From Zetaproteobacteria bacterium CG06_land_8_20_14_3_00_59_53 (GTDB lineage Bacteria > Pseudomonadota > Zetaproteobacteria > Mariprofundales > Mariprofundaceae), in NCBI GenBank assembly GCA_002779605.1, contig PEWE01000023.1, positions 28,645 through 65,887 of the forward strand: 37,243 bases of DNA, in the 5' to 3' direction. Positions 3 through 5,628 of this stretch are shown here, piece after piece; positions within the stretch are counted from its first letter, which is position 1; each line of letters opens with the position of its first letter. The position numbers and the translations under genes are program-made. The notes below the pieces were generated by a model. The model was not told the DNA's origin, did not search any database, and saw only the letters and a list, made by a program, of their open reading frames with translations.

Positions 3-1508
3 CGCCTGGACTGGGCGCAGGCCGCGGAACTGGCCCGTCGACTGGAAATGCGGCTGGTGGCCGTATGGGCGGCCGAAGCCGGGCTGCACGATGCATCGCC
101 ATCCGGCGACCTGCCGCTGTATGCCTATATGGCCTATGCCCACCCCGAGCACCGTCACGCGTTGTTGCGCACCGAGTTGAATACCGATGAGCCTGTGGTT
201 CACTCCATCAGCCCCCACTTTATCGCCGCGTGCCGCATGGAGCGAAGCATGCAGGACATGTTCGGCATCCGCGTGCAGGGCATTCCCGATGACAGGGCAT
301 GGCTGAAACACGAACACTGGCCGGAGGAAGCCCTGCCGCTGAAACGCGATTTCAACGCCGTGCAACCCATGCCTTCCGATCCGGCACGCATGGGAATCGA
401 TTACCCCTATGTGCAGAGCGCCAGTTCCGGGGTGCATGAAATCCCTGTCGGCCCGGTGCATGCCGGCATCATCGAGCCGGGGCATTTCCGCTTTCTTGCC
501 GTGGGTGAACAGGTGCTGAACATGGAGGCAAGGCTGGGCTATGTACACAAGGGTGTGGAGCGCGCCATGCAGGGAAAAAGTGCAGAAAACGGCGTGAAGC
601 TGGCCGGACGAACATCGGGCGATTGCACGGTGGCGCACGCCTGGGCCTTCTCGCAGGCCTGCGAGTATGCCGCTCAGAAACCGCCGCCGTTGCGTGCCAG
701 CTTTATCCGTGGCGTGCTCTGCGAACGCGAACGCATGGCCAATCATATCGGCGACATCGGGGCGATCTGCAACGATGCCGCCTTCGGCTTCATGCATGCC
801 CAGATGCAGCGCCTGCGCGAGGACATGGCAAGGCTGCACGCCGCCATCTTTGGCCATCGCCTGTTGATGGATCTGGTGATCCCGGGCGGGGTAGGCCGCG
901 ACATCCCGGCGGTCGAGCGGGATGCGCTGCTGGCGCAGACACAGGATATCGCCGAAGAGGTGGAGCGCCTGCGCAGCATCTATGCGGATCACCCCTCGAT
1001 CCAGGAACGGGTCATCGGATCGGGCGTGGTGAGCACGGAGGACGCCCTCGATCTGGGCCTGCTCGGCTATGCCGGGCGCGCCTCGGGTAACTATCCGGAC
1101 GAGCGTATCGAGGAGGCGTATCCTCCGTATGACGGACTGCAAATCAGGGTTGCCAAGGGGCGCATGGGCGATGTCGCGACACGCGTCTGGGTACGCTTCG
1201 AGGAGATCGCCGATTCGGCGCGCATCATCGCCCTGTTGCTTGAAGCCATGCCGGAGGGGGCGATTGCCAACCCGTGGAAAGCACCCGAGGCAGGCCTTTC
1301 GGGATTCGCCGCCATCGAGGGCTGGCGAGGCGAGATCGCCGCATGGGTGAGATTCGGGGAAGGCGGTCTGGTGGACCGCTACTTCGTGCGCGACCCGTCG
1401 GTGATCAACTGGCTGGGGCTGGAACTGGCCGTACGCGGCGTGCCTGTGCCGGACTTCCCGCTGAACAACAAATCCTTCAACTGCTCGTATGCGGGCAACG
1501 ACCTCTGA
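3..1508 (+). CDS. Group 4 hydrogenase-like / complex I 49 kDa-like large subunit (HycE/HyfG family, Ehr type), 5' partial
   Basis: The reading frame is open to the left edge, so the true start lies outside the window. Counting from the ATG at 48, residues up to about 100 resemble the NuoC (30 kDa) domain, with MFGI followed by GIPDDRAWLKHEHWPE. The rest is a NuoD/HycE-type large subunit (GPVHAGIIEPGHFRF, then EARLGYVHKGVE). Catalytic group 4 enzymes have a CGIC-type motif near the middle and DPCxxC near the C-terminus. Here the first site reads RTSGDC (188-193), with one of two cysteines, and the C-terminus reads FNCSYAGNDL (477-486), with no CxxC. I infer a hydrogenase-related (Ehr-like) complex that moves electrons and ions but makes no H2. 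The stop overlaps the next gene's start (TGATG), so the two are coupled. The family is clear; the electron donor and acceptor are not. Confidence 0.82.
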   Translation, partial: RLDWAQAAELARRLEMRLVAVWAAEAGLHDASPSGDLPLYAYMAYAHPEHRHALLRTELNTDEPVVHSISPHFIAACRMERSMQDMFGIRVQGIPDDRAWLKHEHWPEEALPLKRDFNAVQPMPSDPARMGIDYPYVQSASSGVHEIPVGPVHAGIIEPGHFRFLAVGEQVLNMEARLGYVHKGVERAMQGKSAENGVKLAGRTSGDCTVAHAWAFSQACEYAAQKPPPLRASFIRGVLCERERMANHIGDIGAICNDAAFGFMHAQMQRLREDMARLHAAIFGHRLLMDLVIPGGVGRDIPAVERDALLAQTQDIAEEVERLRSIYADHPSIQERVIGSGVVSTEDALDLGLLGYAGRASGNYPDERIEEAYPPYDGLQIRVAKGRMGDVATRVWVRFEEIADSARIIALLLEAMPEGAIANPWKAPEAGLSGFAAIEGWRGEIAAWVRFGEGGLVDRYFVRDPSVINWLGLELAVRGVPVPDFPLNNKSFNCSYAGNDL

Positions 1509-2082: not shown

Positions 2083-2274
2083 TCACCTGAGCCTTAAAAT
2101 CCCCAGAGCAGCACAGACAGCGCCACCGATCAGCAAGGCATAGGCCTTCATCGGGGCTTCGCCGTCAAAGGCCCGGCTGAGCTGCGATCCGGCCGAGTCG
2201 TAGATATCATAACCCCAGAAGAAAAGTCCCGTTCCGATCATCAGTAGTGCAATGCTGATCATTTTATTATTCAT
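2083..2274 (-). CDS. DUF3185 family small membrane protein
   Basis: A 63-residue protein with two hydrophobic segments (about 4-20 and 44-61) separated by a polar loop containing YDIYDSAGSQLSRAF. That loop and the size match the DUF3185 family of small two-helix inner-membrane proteins, whose function is unknown. The ATG overlaps the 3' end of the PA2778-like gene by 8 bases, so it is probably the last gene of that envelope operon and translationally coupled to it. Family assignment is from the pattern of the loop and helices; no catalytic residues are apparent. Confidence 0.72.
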   Translation of the reverse strand: MNNKMISIALLMIGTGLFFWGYDIYDSAGSQLSRAFDGEAPMKAYALLIGGAVCAALGILRLR

Positions 2275-3280
2275 GGTTCACTCCGTACCCATTGCCGGTT
2301 GCATTACGAATCGCGTCCTGCGTATTGCGGTAAAGCTGCGATTCGCCATCAAGGTGCATGGCCTGCCGGATCGCATCGCGTGCATCATCCTTGCGCCCCT
2401 GCTCAAAATAGACCTGTGCCAGATTGTTGTATGCGGCAGCCGCATCGGGGTGGTCGATCGTGGCCTGATAGAAAGCCTGCCCGGCTTTGTCGAGCTGGCC
2501 CAGCGAGTAGTAGCTGTTCCCCCTGCCCATCCGGGCGGTAAGGCTGAGCGGCCAGCGCTGCAGCGCCGCCTGATAGACCATGGCTGCAGCCTGAGGCTGA
2601 CTGGCTTGCTCCAGGCTCACCGCCGCCTGCATCAAACGCGCCTCATCCACCCTTGCGGGCAGGGTGTCGGGCGGCAGGCTCAGCATGGCCCAGTATCCGG
2701 CGCGCGCCCAGGTGTGCTCGAAGGTCGAAAGCGGGATGCGATGTTCGGCCTCCTGACCGGAATGCAGGGTGATGGTCCGATCATGAAGGTCGTATCCGAT
2801 GACCACCGCATAATGCCACTGCGGATACCAGCTCAGCGCCAGATTCTGGAAAACCAGCACCGGATGCCCGGCTCCGACCTCGCCCAGAAGATCGGCGAGC
2901 TTCGGCGCAAGCGGATAGGCCAGCATGCCGTAGCGGAGTGGCATCGCCAGCATCTCGATCTGCAGGCTGCCGTTTTTATCCGGGATGAAGAGCCCGGGGC
3001 TCAGCTGTTCCGGACTCAGCGGCTTACCGGCCCAGCTCAACATCATGGCCTGAGCGGCGGGGCCGCATTGGAATTCGCTTTGCGCGAAGAACGGCACATG
3101 ATCGACATGCGCCGCAACGGGAAGACTGGCGGGCCTGTGCTGCAGCAGGGCCTGGGATTGCCCGGCGGCACAAGCGCCGAGCATCAGCATCAGGCATGCG
3201 CCCATCATCAGACGGCCACATGCCTGCGCCCTCTGCCACGCTGCCGGCTTATCGAACCGGGTGAACAAACGGGAAAACAT
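2267..3280 (-). CDS. PA2778-family C39-like cysteine peptidase with TPR repeats, lipoprotein
   Basis: A 337-residue lipoprotein. The signal sequence ends in a lipobox (MLGAC, Cys37). The residue after the cysteine is Ala, so sorting to the outer membrane is expected. Next comes a papain-like, C39-like peptidase domain (about 60-200): the probable catalytic Cys72 lies in FQCGPAAQAMM and the probable His156 in PQWHYAVVIGYD. The C-terminal third (about 220-335) is TPR-like (YNNLAQVYFEQGRKDDA). The family is known by its Pseudomonas name PA2778 and normally sits beside PA2779, as here. The gene overlaps the 3' end of PA2779 by 32 bases. A later start at Met25 or Met26 would still keep the lipobox. 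C39 peptidases usually cut after Gly-Gly; whether this one does is unknown, but its neighbour carries such a site. Confidence 0.85.
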   Translation of the reverse strand: MFSRLFTRFDKPAAWQRAQACGRLMMGACLMLMLGACAAGQSQALLQHRPASLPVAAHVDHVPFFAQSEFQCGPAAQAMMLSWAGKPLSPEQLSPGLFIPDKNGSLQIEMLAMPLRYGMLAYPLAPKLADLLGEVGAGHPVLVFQNLALSWYPQWHYAVVIGYDLHDRTITLHSGQEAEHRIPLSTFEHTWARAGYWAMLSLPPDTLPARVDEARLMQAAVSLEQASQPQAAAMVYQAALQRWPLSLTARMGRGNSYYSLGQLDKAGQAFYQATIDHPDAAAAYNNLAQVYFEQGRKDDARDAIRQAMHLDGESQLYRNTQDAIRNATGNGYGVNHE

Positions 3281-3656
3281 CGGTCAAACCGACAATGTCG
3301 GTAATCAGCAGCACCACAAAGATAAACACCGCCGCTCCTACAAGCACACCAACGGCACTGCCACCGGCCGGAAGCTGGTCGATCTTGCCGGAGAGCATCT
3401 GCACCTCCGCATCGCTCAGGCCGGCTACCCGGTCACGGGCATCCTGCAGGGCCACGCCATGCTCCTGTAACTGTTGCTGGACCTCGGCCCTGTCCAGAAA
3501 GGCCACGATGTTTTCGCGCCCCTGTTCGGAGCTTTGTTGTGCCATGAGCTGGGCTGTGCCGACCATGGATGCCTGAGCCAGCGGCATGTGAATATTCAGC
3601 CCCACGATACTCATAATCATCAGGGATACGCAGATTCTGCTGAGAAACTTTTTCAT
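3249..3656 (-). CDS. PA2779-family secreted protein with C-terminal membrane helix
   Basis: I start this gene at the ATG at 3656, which gives 135 residues, because AAGGAG lies just upstream; the longer frame to 3698 has no such support. A Sec signal sequence (1-30, ending PLAQAS) precedes an amphipathic helical region. Next is LSDAEVQMLSGKIDQLPAGG (80-99), directly followed by one membrane helix (about 101-120) and a short tail (VFPFVHPVR). This layout matches the PA2779 family, which is found next to PA2778. The Gly-Gly before the helix, with an upstream LSxxEVxxLSG stretch, looks like the double-glycine leader of C39-processed peptides. The function of the family is unknown. The likely partner or substrate is the overlapping C39-like lipoprotein, but that is inference. 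Confidence 0.82.
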   Translation of the reverse strand: MKKFLSRICVSLMIMSIVGLNIHMPLAQASMVGTAQLMAQQSSEQGRENIVAFLDRAEVQQQLQEHGVALQDARDRVAGLSDAEVQMLSGKIDQLPAGGSAVGVLVGAAVFIFVVLLITDIVGLTDVFPFVHPVR

Positions 3657-3697: not shown

Positions 3698-4015
3698 TTA
3701 TTTCAGGCGCATATCATCCTTGACCGACTTCACACCCTTCACGCTGCGGGCCAGCTCAACCGCCTTTCTTTCATCATCACTCGAGCTGACAAAGCCGCTC
3801 AACTGGACGATGCCCTTGAAGGTCTCGACGTTGATCTCGCCTGCTTTCAGCGAGGACTCGCCGATGAATGCCGCCATCACCTTGCTGGTGATCACGGTGT
3901 CATCCACATACTCGCCCGTACCCTCCTGCGTGGCGGTCGAGGCGCATCCGAGAAGAGATGCCACCACCATGGCCAGCATGAAGCCCGTGAAGCGTTTGTT
4001 CATATTCAATGTCAT
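3698..4015 (-). CDS. BON-domain lipoprotein
   Basis: A 105-residue protein with a lipoprotein signal (lipobox SLLGC, Cys24) and one BON domain (about 36-104). The domain shows the usual pattern: DDTVITSKVMAAF, then INVETFKGIVQLSGFV, then ARSVKGVKSVKDDM. BON domains bind phospholipid or envelope surfaces and occur in osmotic-stress and outer-membrane stability proteins such as OsmY and DolP. OsmY and DolP carry two copies; this one has one. An AGGAG seven bases before the ATG at 4015 supports the start. It lies 41 bases upstream of PA2779 on the same strand, so it may head that operon. A periplasmic, lipid-anchored stress role is likely but not shown. Confidence 0.85.
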   Translation of the reverse strand: MTLNMNKRFTGFMLAMVVASLLGCASTATQEGTGEYVDDTVITSKVMAAFIGESSLKAGEINVETFKGIVQLSGFVSSSDDERKAVELARSVKGVKSVKDDMRLK

Positions 4016-4164: not shown

Positions 4165-5628
4165 TTATGGTGCCGGCTGGGTTACCGTATTCACCTGCAA
4201 GGTGACAGCGGTCTGTGATAACAGCCTGCCGTTCACCGTTGCGCCGGTATTCACGGTAATACCCTTTACAGCCAGCATGACACCCTGCATCAGAGCCGTC
4301 GTACCGATGGAAACACCGGTACCGCCGCCCACCTGCCAGAAGATGTTTTTGGGTAGTGCGCCGCCGATGAGCAGAACGCTGGTGCCATTCGCCTGGATGA
4401 CATCCCCGGATACCTGGAAGATCCACACATCGTTCGGACCGCCCGAGAGCGTGACGTTGGTGTTGATATTCACAGTCGTACCCCATTTATACAGACCGGG
4501 AACGAGTGTCAGGCCGCTGATATTGCCGGCGCCCAGTTCGGTGAAATCAGGTGTGGTCCTGCCTGCCGCATCGGTATAGGCGGTGCCCATATCGAGTACC
4601 GCATTGGCGACCAGCGTATTGTCTGCCGGAAGACCGGAAAAACAGGTGACTGCGCCGCTGCCTGTATAGGCGGCATTTGCACCGTAGATCCTGCTCGGGA
4701 CAACCATTTCCGAACAGAACACATTGTTCATTGCCGCAGCGGTGATCGGGCTTGCACCGACATGACCGGTGATCGCCGAGGTATGAACGTTGGTGACGCC
4801 GGTTTTCGTCAGGATGACGAAGTTACCGGATGTTCTGAGATTGACCGCGGCAGGTCCTGCAGCAGCAGCGACGCTGCCGGTCGTGAAGGTCCACACATAA
4901 TCAGCCGCCAGTGCGGTTGCAGGGTTCCCCAGATCGGTGATGGCCGTCGTCAGTGTGGCGGTATAGACCTTGCTGGCAAGCAGAGGGTTCGTCGGGGTGA
5001 AGGTCGCCACCTTGTTCAGATAGCTGACCGCACCTGCGATCGACGTGGCACCCTGCTTCAGGGTAAAGGTCGTGCTGTTTACCGTGGCCGGTGCAAGCGC
5101 CTCGCTGAAGTTCGCAACAACAGTGCTGTTAAGCACCACAGCTGTGGCCGCATTCGCAGGGCTGGTTGTCAGCACAGTCGGGGCGGTGGTGTCTGCCGTC
5201 GTACCTGTGGTGAAGCTCCAGACATAGTTGCTCGCCAGCGTCACGCCACCGGAGCTTCTTATGCTGTTGGTAAGTGTGGCGGTATACAGCTTGCTGGCCG
5301 TCATATTGCCGGTCGGCGTGAAACTCACCGTTTGAGTGGTGGCGTTATAGTTCACGGCTCCGCTGAGTGCTGTCTCAGCCGCACCGATGACAGTAAAGCT
5401 TGAGGTATCAATGGTTGAGCTGTTCATCGCACCACTGAAGGTGGCCGTCACGCTGGCATTGAGCGGCACAGCAATGGCAGTATCTACCGGATTGGTATCC
5501 AGCACCGTGGGGACCGGACCGGTACCTGTGCCGCCACCGCCGCCGCCACCACAAGCTGTAACAAGGGGTATCAGCAGCAGGGCTGCCAGCCATAAACTTC
5601 GGCCAGTAAAGTTGTTTTTCGTTTGCAT
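4165..5628 (-). CDS. Ice-binding-like (DUF3494) lipoprotein with two Ig-like domains
   Basis: A 487-residue surface lipoprotein. The signal sequence ends at LVTACGG (Cys26), followed by a run of glycines. Two bacterial Ig-like (Big_5 type) repeats follow, at about 38-142 and 148-253. Each begins with a TxPxxxATAV-like strand and ends YVWSFTTG or YVWTFTTG. The C-terminal 225 residues match the DUF3494 ice-binding beta-solenoid family: NFVILTKTGVTNV, TDAAGRTTPDFTELG, GLYKWGTTVNI, NDVWIFQVSGD, NIFWQVGGG and LLSQTAVTLQ. Members bind ice or serve as extracellular adhesins; many occur in non-polar bacteria, where the ligand is unknown. AGGAG seven bases before the ATG fixes the start. The Ser/Thr/Ala/Val-rich composition differs from the neighbours but is normal for the family. 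Ice binding itself is not shown. Confidence 0.87.
   Translation of the reverse strand: MQTKNNFTGRSLWLAALLLIPLVTACGGGGGGGTGTGPVPTVLDTNPVDTAIAVPLNASVTATFSGAMNSSTIDTSSFTVIGAAETALSGAVNYNATTQTVSFTPTGNMTASKLYTATLTNSIRSSGGVTLASNYVWSFTTGTTADTTAPTVLTTSPANAATAVVLNSTVVANFSEALAPATVNSTTFTLKQGATSIAGAVSYLNKVATFTPTNPLLASKVYTATLTTAITDLGNPATALAADYVWTFTTGSVAAAAGPAAVNLRTSGNFVILTKTGVTNVHTSAITGHVGASPITAAAMNNVFCSEMVVPSRIYGANAAYTGSGAVTCFSGLPADNTLVANAVLDMGTAYTDAAGRTTPDFTELGAGNISGLTLVPGLYKWGTTVNINTNVTLSGGPNDVWIFQVSGDVIQANGTSVLLIGGALPKNIFWQVGGGTGVSIGTTALMQGVMLAVKGITVNTGATVNGRLLSQTAVTLQVNTVTQPAP

Follow-up and report, generated by a model that had tools for sequence, protein, structure and literature searches.

Comparative analysis supports PA2779 and the C39-like lipoprotein PA2778 as a probable dedicated enzyme-target pair

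We analyzed two overlapping genes of the PA2779 and PA2778 families in a 37,243-nt stretch of DNA from Zetaproteobacteria bacterium CG06_land_8_20_14_3_00_59_53, hereafter called the window. The comparison across genomes supports the view that the two products form a dedicated enzyme-target pair. In the reading that we consider probable, PA2778 is a dedicated C39-type protease that cuts PA2779 at a PAG(G) motif and frees its periplasmic domain from the hydrophobic tail. On comparison of the homologues, the two families always occur together, the catalytic residues of PA2778 are selected only in the presence of the partner, and the putative site is kept independently of the tail that follows it. 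The physical complex, the cut and the bond at which it falls, and what becomes of the domain once freed, are inferred.

Both genes were confirmed from their open reading frames and family profiles as placed in the preliminary description, and all positions given for them and their products are on the minus strand of the window. The gene of the proposed target, a PA2779-family protein (DUF6627) of 135 aa, starts with an ATG at 3656 and occupies 3249..3656, and that of the PA2778-family cysteine peptidase, a lipoprotein of 337 aa, occupies 2267..3280, giving the described overlap, which amounts to 32 nt. The pair is preceded by a gene for a BON-domain (OsmY-like) lipoprotein (3698..4015, minus strand) and followed by one for a DUF3185 small membrane protein (2101..2274, minus strand). 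The neighbourhood comparison revealed no third gene conserved with PA2779 and PA2778; the flanking genes vary between loci, and the BON and DUF3185 neighbours are therefore local to the window. No conserved transporter or immunity gene and no conserved acceptor or second component was found near the pair in the same comparison, and a search for links to phages, viral contigs and defence systems returned nothing. Elsewhere in the window, we observed an Ice-binding-like protein (PF11999) with two Big_5 domains (4165-5628, minus strand) and a fused Complex I 30 kDa/49 kDa-type hydrogenase large subunit (48-1508, plus strand), with an apparent small subunit after the large-subunit gene, inside the open reading frame at 1274-2014.

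The window PA2779 is a clear member of NF033919 (PA2779_fam; 130.9 bits, cut-off 40) and of PF20332 (DUF6627; 111.1 bits, cut-off 27). As previously described, it begins with a Sec-type signal peptide (residues 1-29, 3570..3656), which ends in AQA at 27-29; PA2779 and PA2778 are both predicted to be exported. Alignment and models delimit a periplasmic four-helix domain of approximately 65 residues (30-95, 3372..3569), in which Gly67 and Arg76 are present in all 117 homologues aligned and Glu84 in 116. The alignment further places the proposed processing site, PAGG, at residues 96-99 (3360..3371), ahead of a hydrophobic C-terminal tail (100-135, 3252..3359) that contains Asp120 and the pattern T-x-V-F-P-F. 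No relatives of PA2779 were found in the PDB, either by sequence or by fold. One homologue, encoded by a minus-strand open reading frame at 1356 of locus L239 (310 aa), consists of the PA2779 domain, PAGA, a hydrophobic helix and then an extra domain of about 156 aa without any Pfam match, which would show whether the product lies before or after the cut.

The second protein was described earlier as a lipid-anchored C39-like peptidase with Cys72 and His156, and this holds with exact numbering. It is a clear member of NF033920 (C39_PA2778_fam; 330.6 bits, cut-off 150) and also matches the C39_2 profile PF13529 (35 bits, cut-off 24). The sequence contains the lipobox LGAC at residues 34-37 (3170..3181), with Cys37 as the lipid-bearing residue, and the Ala at position +2 predicts retention in the outer membrane according to the Lol +2 rule. 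The alignment identified the oxyanion Gln67 (3080..3082), the catalytic Cys72 (3065..3067) and the catalytic His156 (2813..2815), and a Foldseek search with the modelled chain retrieved the C39-like peptidase 3erv (probability 1.00, TM 0.63 by target length). The protein thus has a C39-type fold with Gln, Cys and His. The stretch after the His, which aligns with the third C39 triad position (Asp), reads L-[HR]-S-G, and the Asp is not evident. TPR repeats were detected by profile at about residues 214-317 (2330..2640), and TPR proteins were also among the Foldseek matches. In the PA2778 tree, the window protein groups with two copies from one genome family, which shares identical sequences with named Mariprofundus loci, marking the window genome as a relative of Mariprofundus.

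The preliminary description regarded the pair as a known conserved neighbourhood, and indeed both families have already been named by NCBI. In a survey of 299 Pseudomonadota genomes, for which the start sites are approximate, PA2779 exceeded the cut-off in 35 genomes and PA2778 did so in all 35, with PA2778 adjacent to and downstream of PA2779 in 37 of 37 copies. Likewise, canonical PA2779 was found in 29 of 249 genomes from one genus (Pseudomonas or close), and full-length PA2778 in the same 29. Among 80 named loci in GTDB genomes, PA2779 adjoins PA2778 at 78; at the remaining two it is located elsewhere in the genome (on another contig for L197, and at a contig end for L196), showing that the pair stays together even when unlinked (L197/G542). 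A single protease may be accompanied by several PA2779 copies: two in L160, and three in tandem plus one unlinked in L194. The pair is widespread in Beta-, Gamma- and Zetaproteobacteria and in Desulfobacterota, and is also present in one MAG labelled Nitrospirota. In genome G108, an in-frame TAG interrupts one PA2778 gene (contig C9; L016/L089) whose neighbouring PA2779 is intact, and this genome also carries a second, intact pair.

A natural control was provided by PA2778 homologues without a partner. In 211 further genomes of the 249-genome sample, only a shorter PA2778 homologue was found, without TPRs and with no PA2779 nearby. Since one genome (G389) carries both forms, the short homologue is a paralogue at other loci and not a decayed copy in place. 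In 121 PA2778 proteins from genomes with PA2779, the Cys was kept in 120 of 120 readable sequences, the His in 121 of 121 and the Gln in 119 of 120; the corresponding numbers for 25 TPR-less, unpartnered paralogues were 0, 1 and 2. The catalytic residues are thus kept with PA2779 and lost without it, and selection on these residues therefore goes with PA2779. Absence of the Cys or His from most PA2778 homologues had been named beforehand as evidence against the proposal; this objection clearly failed, as every copy with a partner has both residues and it is the copies without one that have lost them. This partner dependence is the strongest single result, and at the level of sequence comparison it shows a functional dependence rather than cleavage. 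The TPR-less paralogue itself (L068-L071, L114-L134), which lacks the Cys, the His and a partner, is kept in approximately 211 of 249 genomes and is thus a conserved pseudo-enzyme.

The putative site was examined in 117 PA2779 sequences. Pro is present at residue 96 in 116 of these and Ala at residue 97 in 113, and residue 98 is Gly in 112 and Ala in 5. Residue 99 is Gly in 81, Ala in 25, Gln in 6, Glu in 3 and Ser in 2, and the residue pairs at 98-99 are GG (76), GA (25), GQ (6), AG (5), GE (3) and GS (2), of which GG, GA and GS agree with a double-glycine site. Judged from the alignment, the small-residue motif ahead of the tail is conserved far beyond chance. The Gly-Gly of the preliminary description thus stands in part: a juxtamembrane P-A-G-[G/A] motif is conserved, but the second Gly varies and the motif is really PAG-[G/A/S/Q/E]. 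The motif also persists where the tail does not, since PAG-[G/A/Q] is kept in all 11 sequences, from 10 loci, that have unrelated tails, one of which (L170) reads LPAGAA. PA2779 copies within multi-copy genomes agree in the motif; in L194, the three tandem copies read PAGQ and the unlinked copy in the same genome PEGQ. LPA[G/A]G has also been kept, with another tail, in an orphan PA2779-like gene that is flanked by a YciO-like gene and trpS (L101-L113). This tail is short and stops directly after the hydrophobic stretch. The pair is present in 12 of the 13 host genomes of the orphan; the exception, G418, has the orphan with PAGG and no intact PA2778, only Cys-less homologues. In one genus only, PVGE or PTGE at the site goes with LHTD replacing LHSG in PA2778, as seen from the covariation of residues 98-99.

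The site had been likened to the leader of C39-processed peptides (LSxxELxxIxGG), and this likeness failed. The substrate consensus of the peptidase-containing transporters (PCATs) is L(-12)xxxE(-8)L(-7)xxxxGG (PMC6959990). In the window PA2779, LSDAEV spans residues 80-85, at -20 to -15 from Gly99, with LSxxE 8 residues too far upstream; the hydrophobic stretch starts at about 103. For a cut after residue 99, position -12 fits in 117 of 117 sequences, while -8 (Ile/Leu) and -7 (Asp) fit in none. For a cut after residue 98, position -7 is hydrophobic in 116 and -4 in 110 of 117, while -8 and -12 do not fit and P2 is Ala. No register satisfied L(-12), E(-8) and L(-7) together for either cut in the 117 sequences, and PA2779 is therefore placed outside the double-glycine leader family, a membership that we rejected. 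Nor does it have a cytosolic N-terminal leader with an ABC transporter; it has a Sec signal and no conserved transporter neighbour. The site may nevertheless be cut in a manner similar to that of double-glycine leaders. A small P1 residue is present in 117 of 117 sequences for a cut after 98 and in 108 of 117 for a cut after 99, and on the sequences we lean towards Gly98 over Gly99 as the position of the scissile bond.

Analysis of 116 PA2779-PA2778 pairs (effective number 64) identified the PA2779 tail residues Asp120 and Thr125 with PA2778 Arg193 (2702..2704) as the top inter-protein signal (z 5.4). The tail pattern TD...T.VF.F is present in 105 of the 116 pairs, and with such TD tails residue 193 is Arg in 103 of 105 (Lys in the other 2). 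Conversely, Arg is absent from position 193 at 8 of the 9 loci that have non-TD tails only, and two plasmid pairs agree with this pattern, having TD with Arg and another tail with Lys. The tail has changed approximately four times on the PA2778 tree, twice on supported branches, so a sign test cannot reach significance and the covariation is kept as suggestive. If real, it fits poorly with a simple inner-membrane helix whose end is cytosolic, since Arg193 is outside the cytoplasm. If the link between Asp120 and Arg193 is direct, the tail would have to be accessible from the periplasm; it would then differ from an ordinary inner-membrane helix with a cytosolic end, and might be extracted or relocated by PA2778. 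It is conceivable, though doubtful, that the two proteins are a sorting pair, in which a lipid-anchored soluble C39 enzyme reads its target on both sides of the cut, recognizing the helical domain ahead of PAG(G) and, through Arg193 and the Thr-Asp of the tail, the part that follows. Compared with the tripartite C-terminus of GlyGly-CTERM proteins (motif, hydrophobic stretch and basic end), PA2779 has the motif and the hydrophobic stretch in all sequences and basic residues among the last 12 in 101 of 117.

For structure prediction, PA2779 and PA2778 of a Gallionellaceae locus (L144), which are in one frame, were modelled as a tethered chain with the single stop read as Ser, using a naturally paired alignment of 101 rows, 26 of which are tethered pairs. 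AlphaFold2 gave a mean pLDDT of 89 and a pTM of 0.82 for the tethered chain, as compared to 77 and 0.42 for PA2779 alone, a comparison confounded by the tether and the differing alignments. With the same confounders, the helix after the signal peptide (blocks 31-50) rose from pLDDT 57-81 alone to 92-94 in the tethered chain (residues 31-40 from 57 to 94), while the tail fell from 80-85 to 61-65. The block containing the PAGG loop changed from 65 to 69 and was not clearly docked. The model suggests that the helical domain is placed against PA2778, as a pTM of 0.82 is otherwise hard to reach at this length. Modelling of the complex, proposed earlier as a check, thus yielded a confident tethered chain but little gain at the loop itself.

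Under the preferred cleavage model, PA2779 would be exported by Sec, with the helical domain in the periplasm and the hydrophobic tail holding the protein in a membrane. PA2778, as an exported outer-membrane lipoprotein, would use its C39 and TPR domains to grip the helical domain. Its cut in the P-A-G-[G/A] linker, behind either Gly98 or Gly99, would detach the helical domain from its tail. Against this model are the Gln or Glu at residue 99 in 9 of 117 sites, the small gain of the PAGG loop in the tethered chain, the third C39 triad residue that is not evident and the G418 orphan without intact PA2778. A further difficulty is that PA2778 in the outer membrane would have to act on a protein whose presumed anchor is in the inner membrane.

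The main rival, which we consider rather unlikely, is that PA2779 regulates PA2778 from its membrane anchor, as an activator or a pseudosubstrate inhibitor, with PAG held in the active site without being turned over and the true substrate elsewhere. Strict co-occurrence and partner-dependent catalytic residues fit such a regulator equally well, and the strongest gain in the model was in the N-terminal helix of PA2779 and not in the motif loop. However, tandem and unlinked extra copies per protease are commoner for targets than for inhibitors, and 108-117 of 117 sequences retain small residues in the motif, as at C39 sites that can be cut. Even less probable is a sortase-like transfer, in which PA2778 would cut PAG(G) and attach the C terminus so formed in PA2779 to a second molecule instead of water. 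The succession of motif, hydrophobic stretch and often basic end, the one-to-one adjacency and the occasional several-to-one pairing all resemble the GlyGly-CTERM/rhombosortase system; yet C39 enzymes are known as hydrolases, and the neighbourhood holds neither a conserved acceptor nor a second component.

Two further explanations appear highly improbable to us. One follows the preliminary description: the hydrophobic C-terminal peptide, there proposed to be released, would be a bacteriocin- or signal-like product behind a double-glycine leader. Its length was correct, with 36 residues after Gly99 in the window, the tail is well conserved in most members, and the L239 homologue has its extra domain beyond the hydrophobic helix. 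However, four branches of the tree keep the site but have an unrelated hydrophobic stretch in place of the tail, the nearby genes include no conserved transporter or immunity gene, and the leader consensus is out of register. As tails of different sequence can replace one another, the system in general is unlikely to serve the release of a 36-residue peptide with a conserved function of its own. We give just as little credence to mere operon co-inheritance, with PA2778 not acting on PA2779 at all. Adjacency of the genes, which usually overlap or nearly do so, would alone suffice for co-occurrence, but it does not account for a pair kept in one genome when unlinked, for the loss of exactly the catalytic residues in unpartnered paralogues, or for PA2779 residues that covary with Arg193.

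The cleavage model has parallels in known systems. LapG, which acts on LapA, is a periplasmic papain-like cysteine protease with a small-residue site beside a membrane-anchoring segment, as proposed here; unlike PA2778, it belongs to another papain-like family, has a c-di-GMP receptor as its partner and acts on giant adhesins. The rhombosortase/GlyGly-CTERM system shares a dedicated protease co-distributed with its target, a glycine motif followed by a hydrophobic stretch and often a basic end, and genes that are adjacent for a single target and unlinked for several (PMC3237569, PMC6219818). Transfer to another molecule has been proposed for rhombosortase. In contrast, PA2778 is a C39-like lipoprotein with a soluble domain and no intramembrane rhomboid, and its target is one small family, whereas GlyGly-CTERM is a tail shared by many unrelated proteins; lipid attachment is not known here. 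The proposed pair would work in the manner of rhombosortase and GlyGly-CTERM, with a soluble C39-type lipoprotein as the enzyme. FapD, from the Fap amyloid system of Pseudomonas, is, like PA2778, a Sec-exported periplasmic cysteine protease of the C39 family with proposed GG/GA sites; its Cys38 is needed for secretion, which the Cys38Ala mutant blocks (PMC5557850). PA2778 differs in being a lipoprotein with TPRs and in having PA2779 as partner instead of fap genes. With the C39 domains of PCATs and bacteriocin ABC transporters it shares the C39-like fold, Gln-Cys-His and small residues at the presumed site (PMC6959990), but it is periplasmic and without a transporter, and the motif precedes a C-terminal hydrophobic tail and does not follow the leader consensus.

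The original observation is real and better supported than from the window alone, although the families were already named and the leader analogy was wrong in detail. The new element is comparative support, drawn from homologous sequences, for an enzyme-target pairing of PA2778 and PA2779. A full-text literature search found no functional study of PA2778, PA2779 or DUF6627, although the relation may have been suggested before by a curator of the families. In RNA-seq of Pseudomonas stutzeri DSM4166, the PA2779-family gene PSTAA_2481 is one of 39 genes whose read counts fall within the top 3% under all four conditions (PMC10155442), and such high counts suggest an abundant envelope protein instead of a rare signal. 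If shown, a dedicated protease-target pair would provide a function for two large families of conserved hypothetical proteins, and it would add release from a membrane to what periplasmic C39 proteases, of which FapD is a known case, can do.
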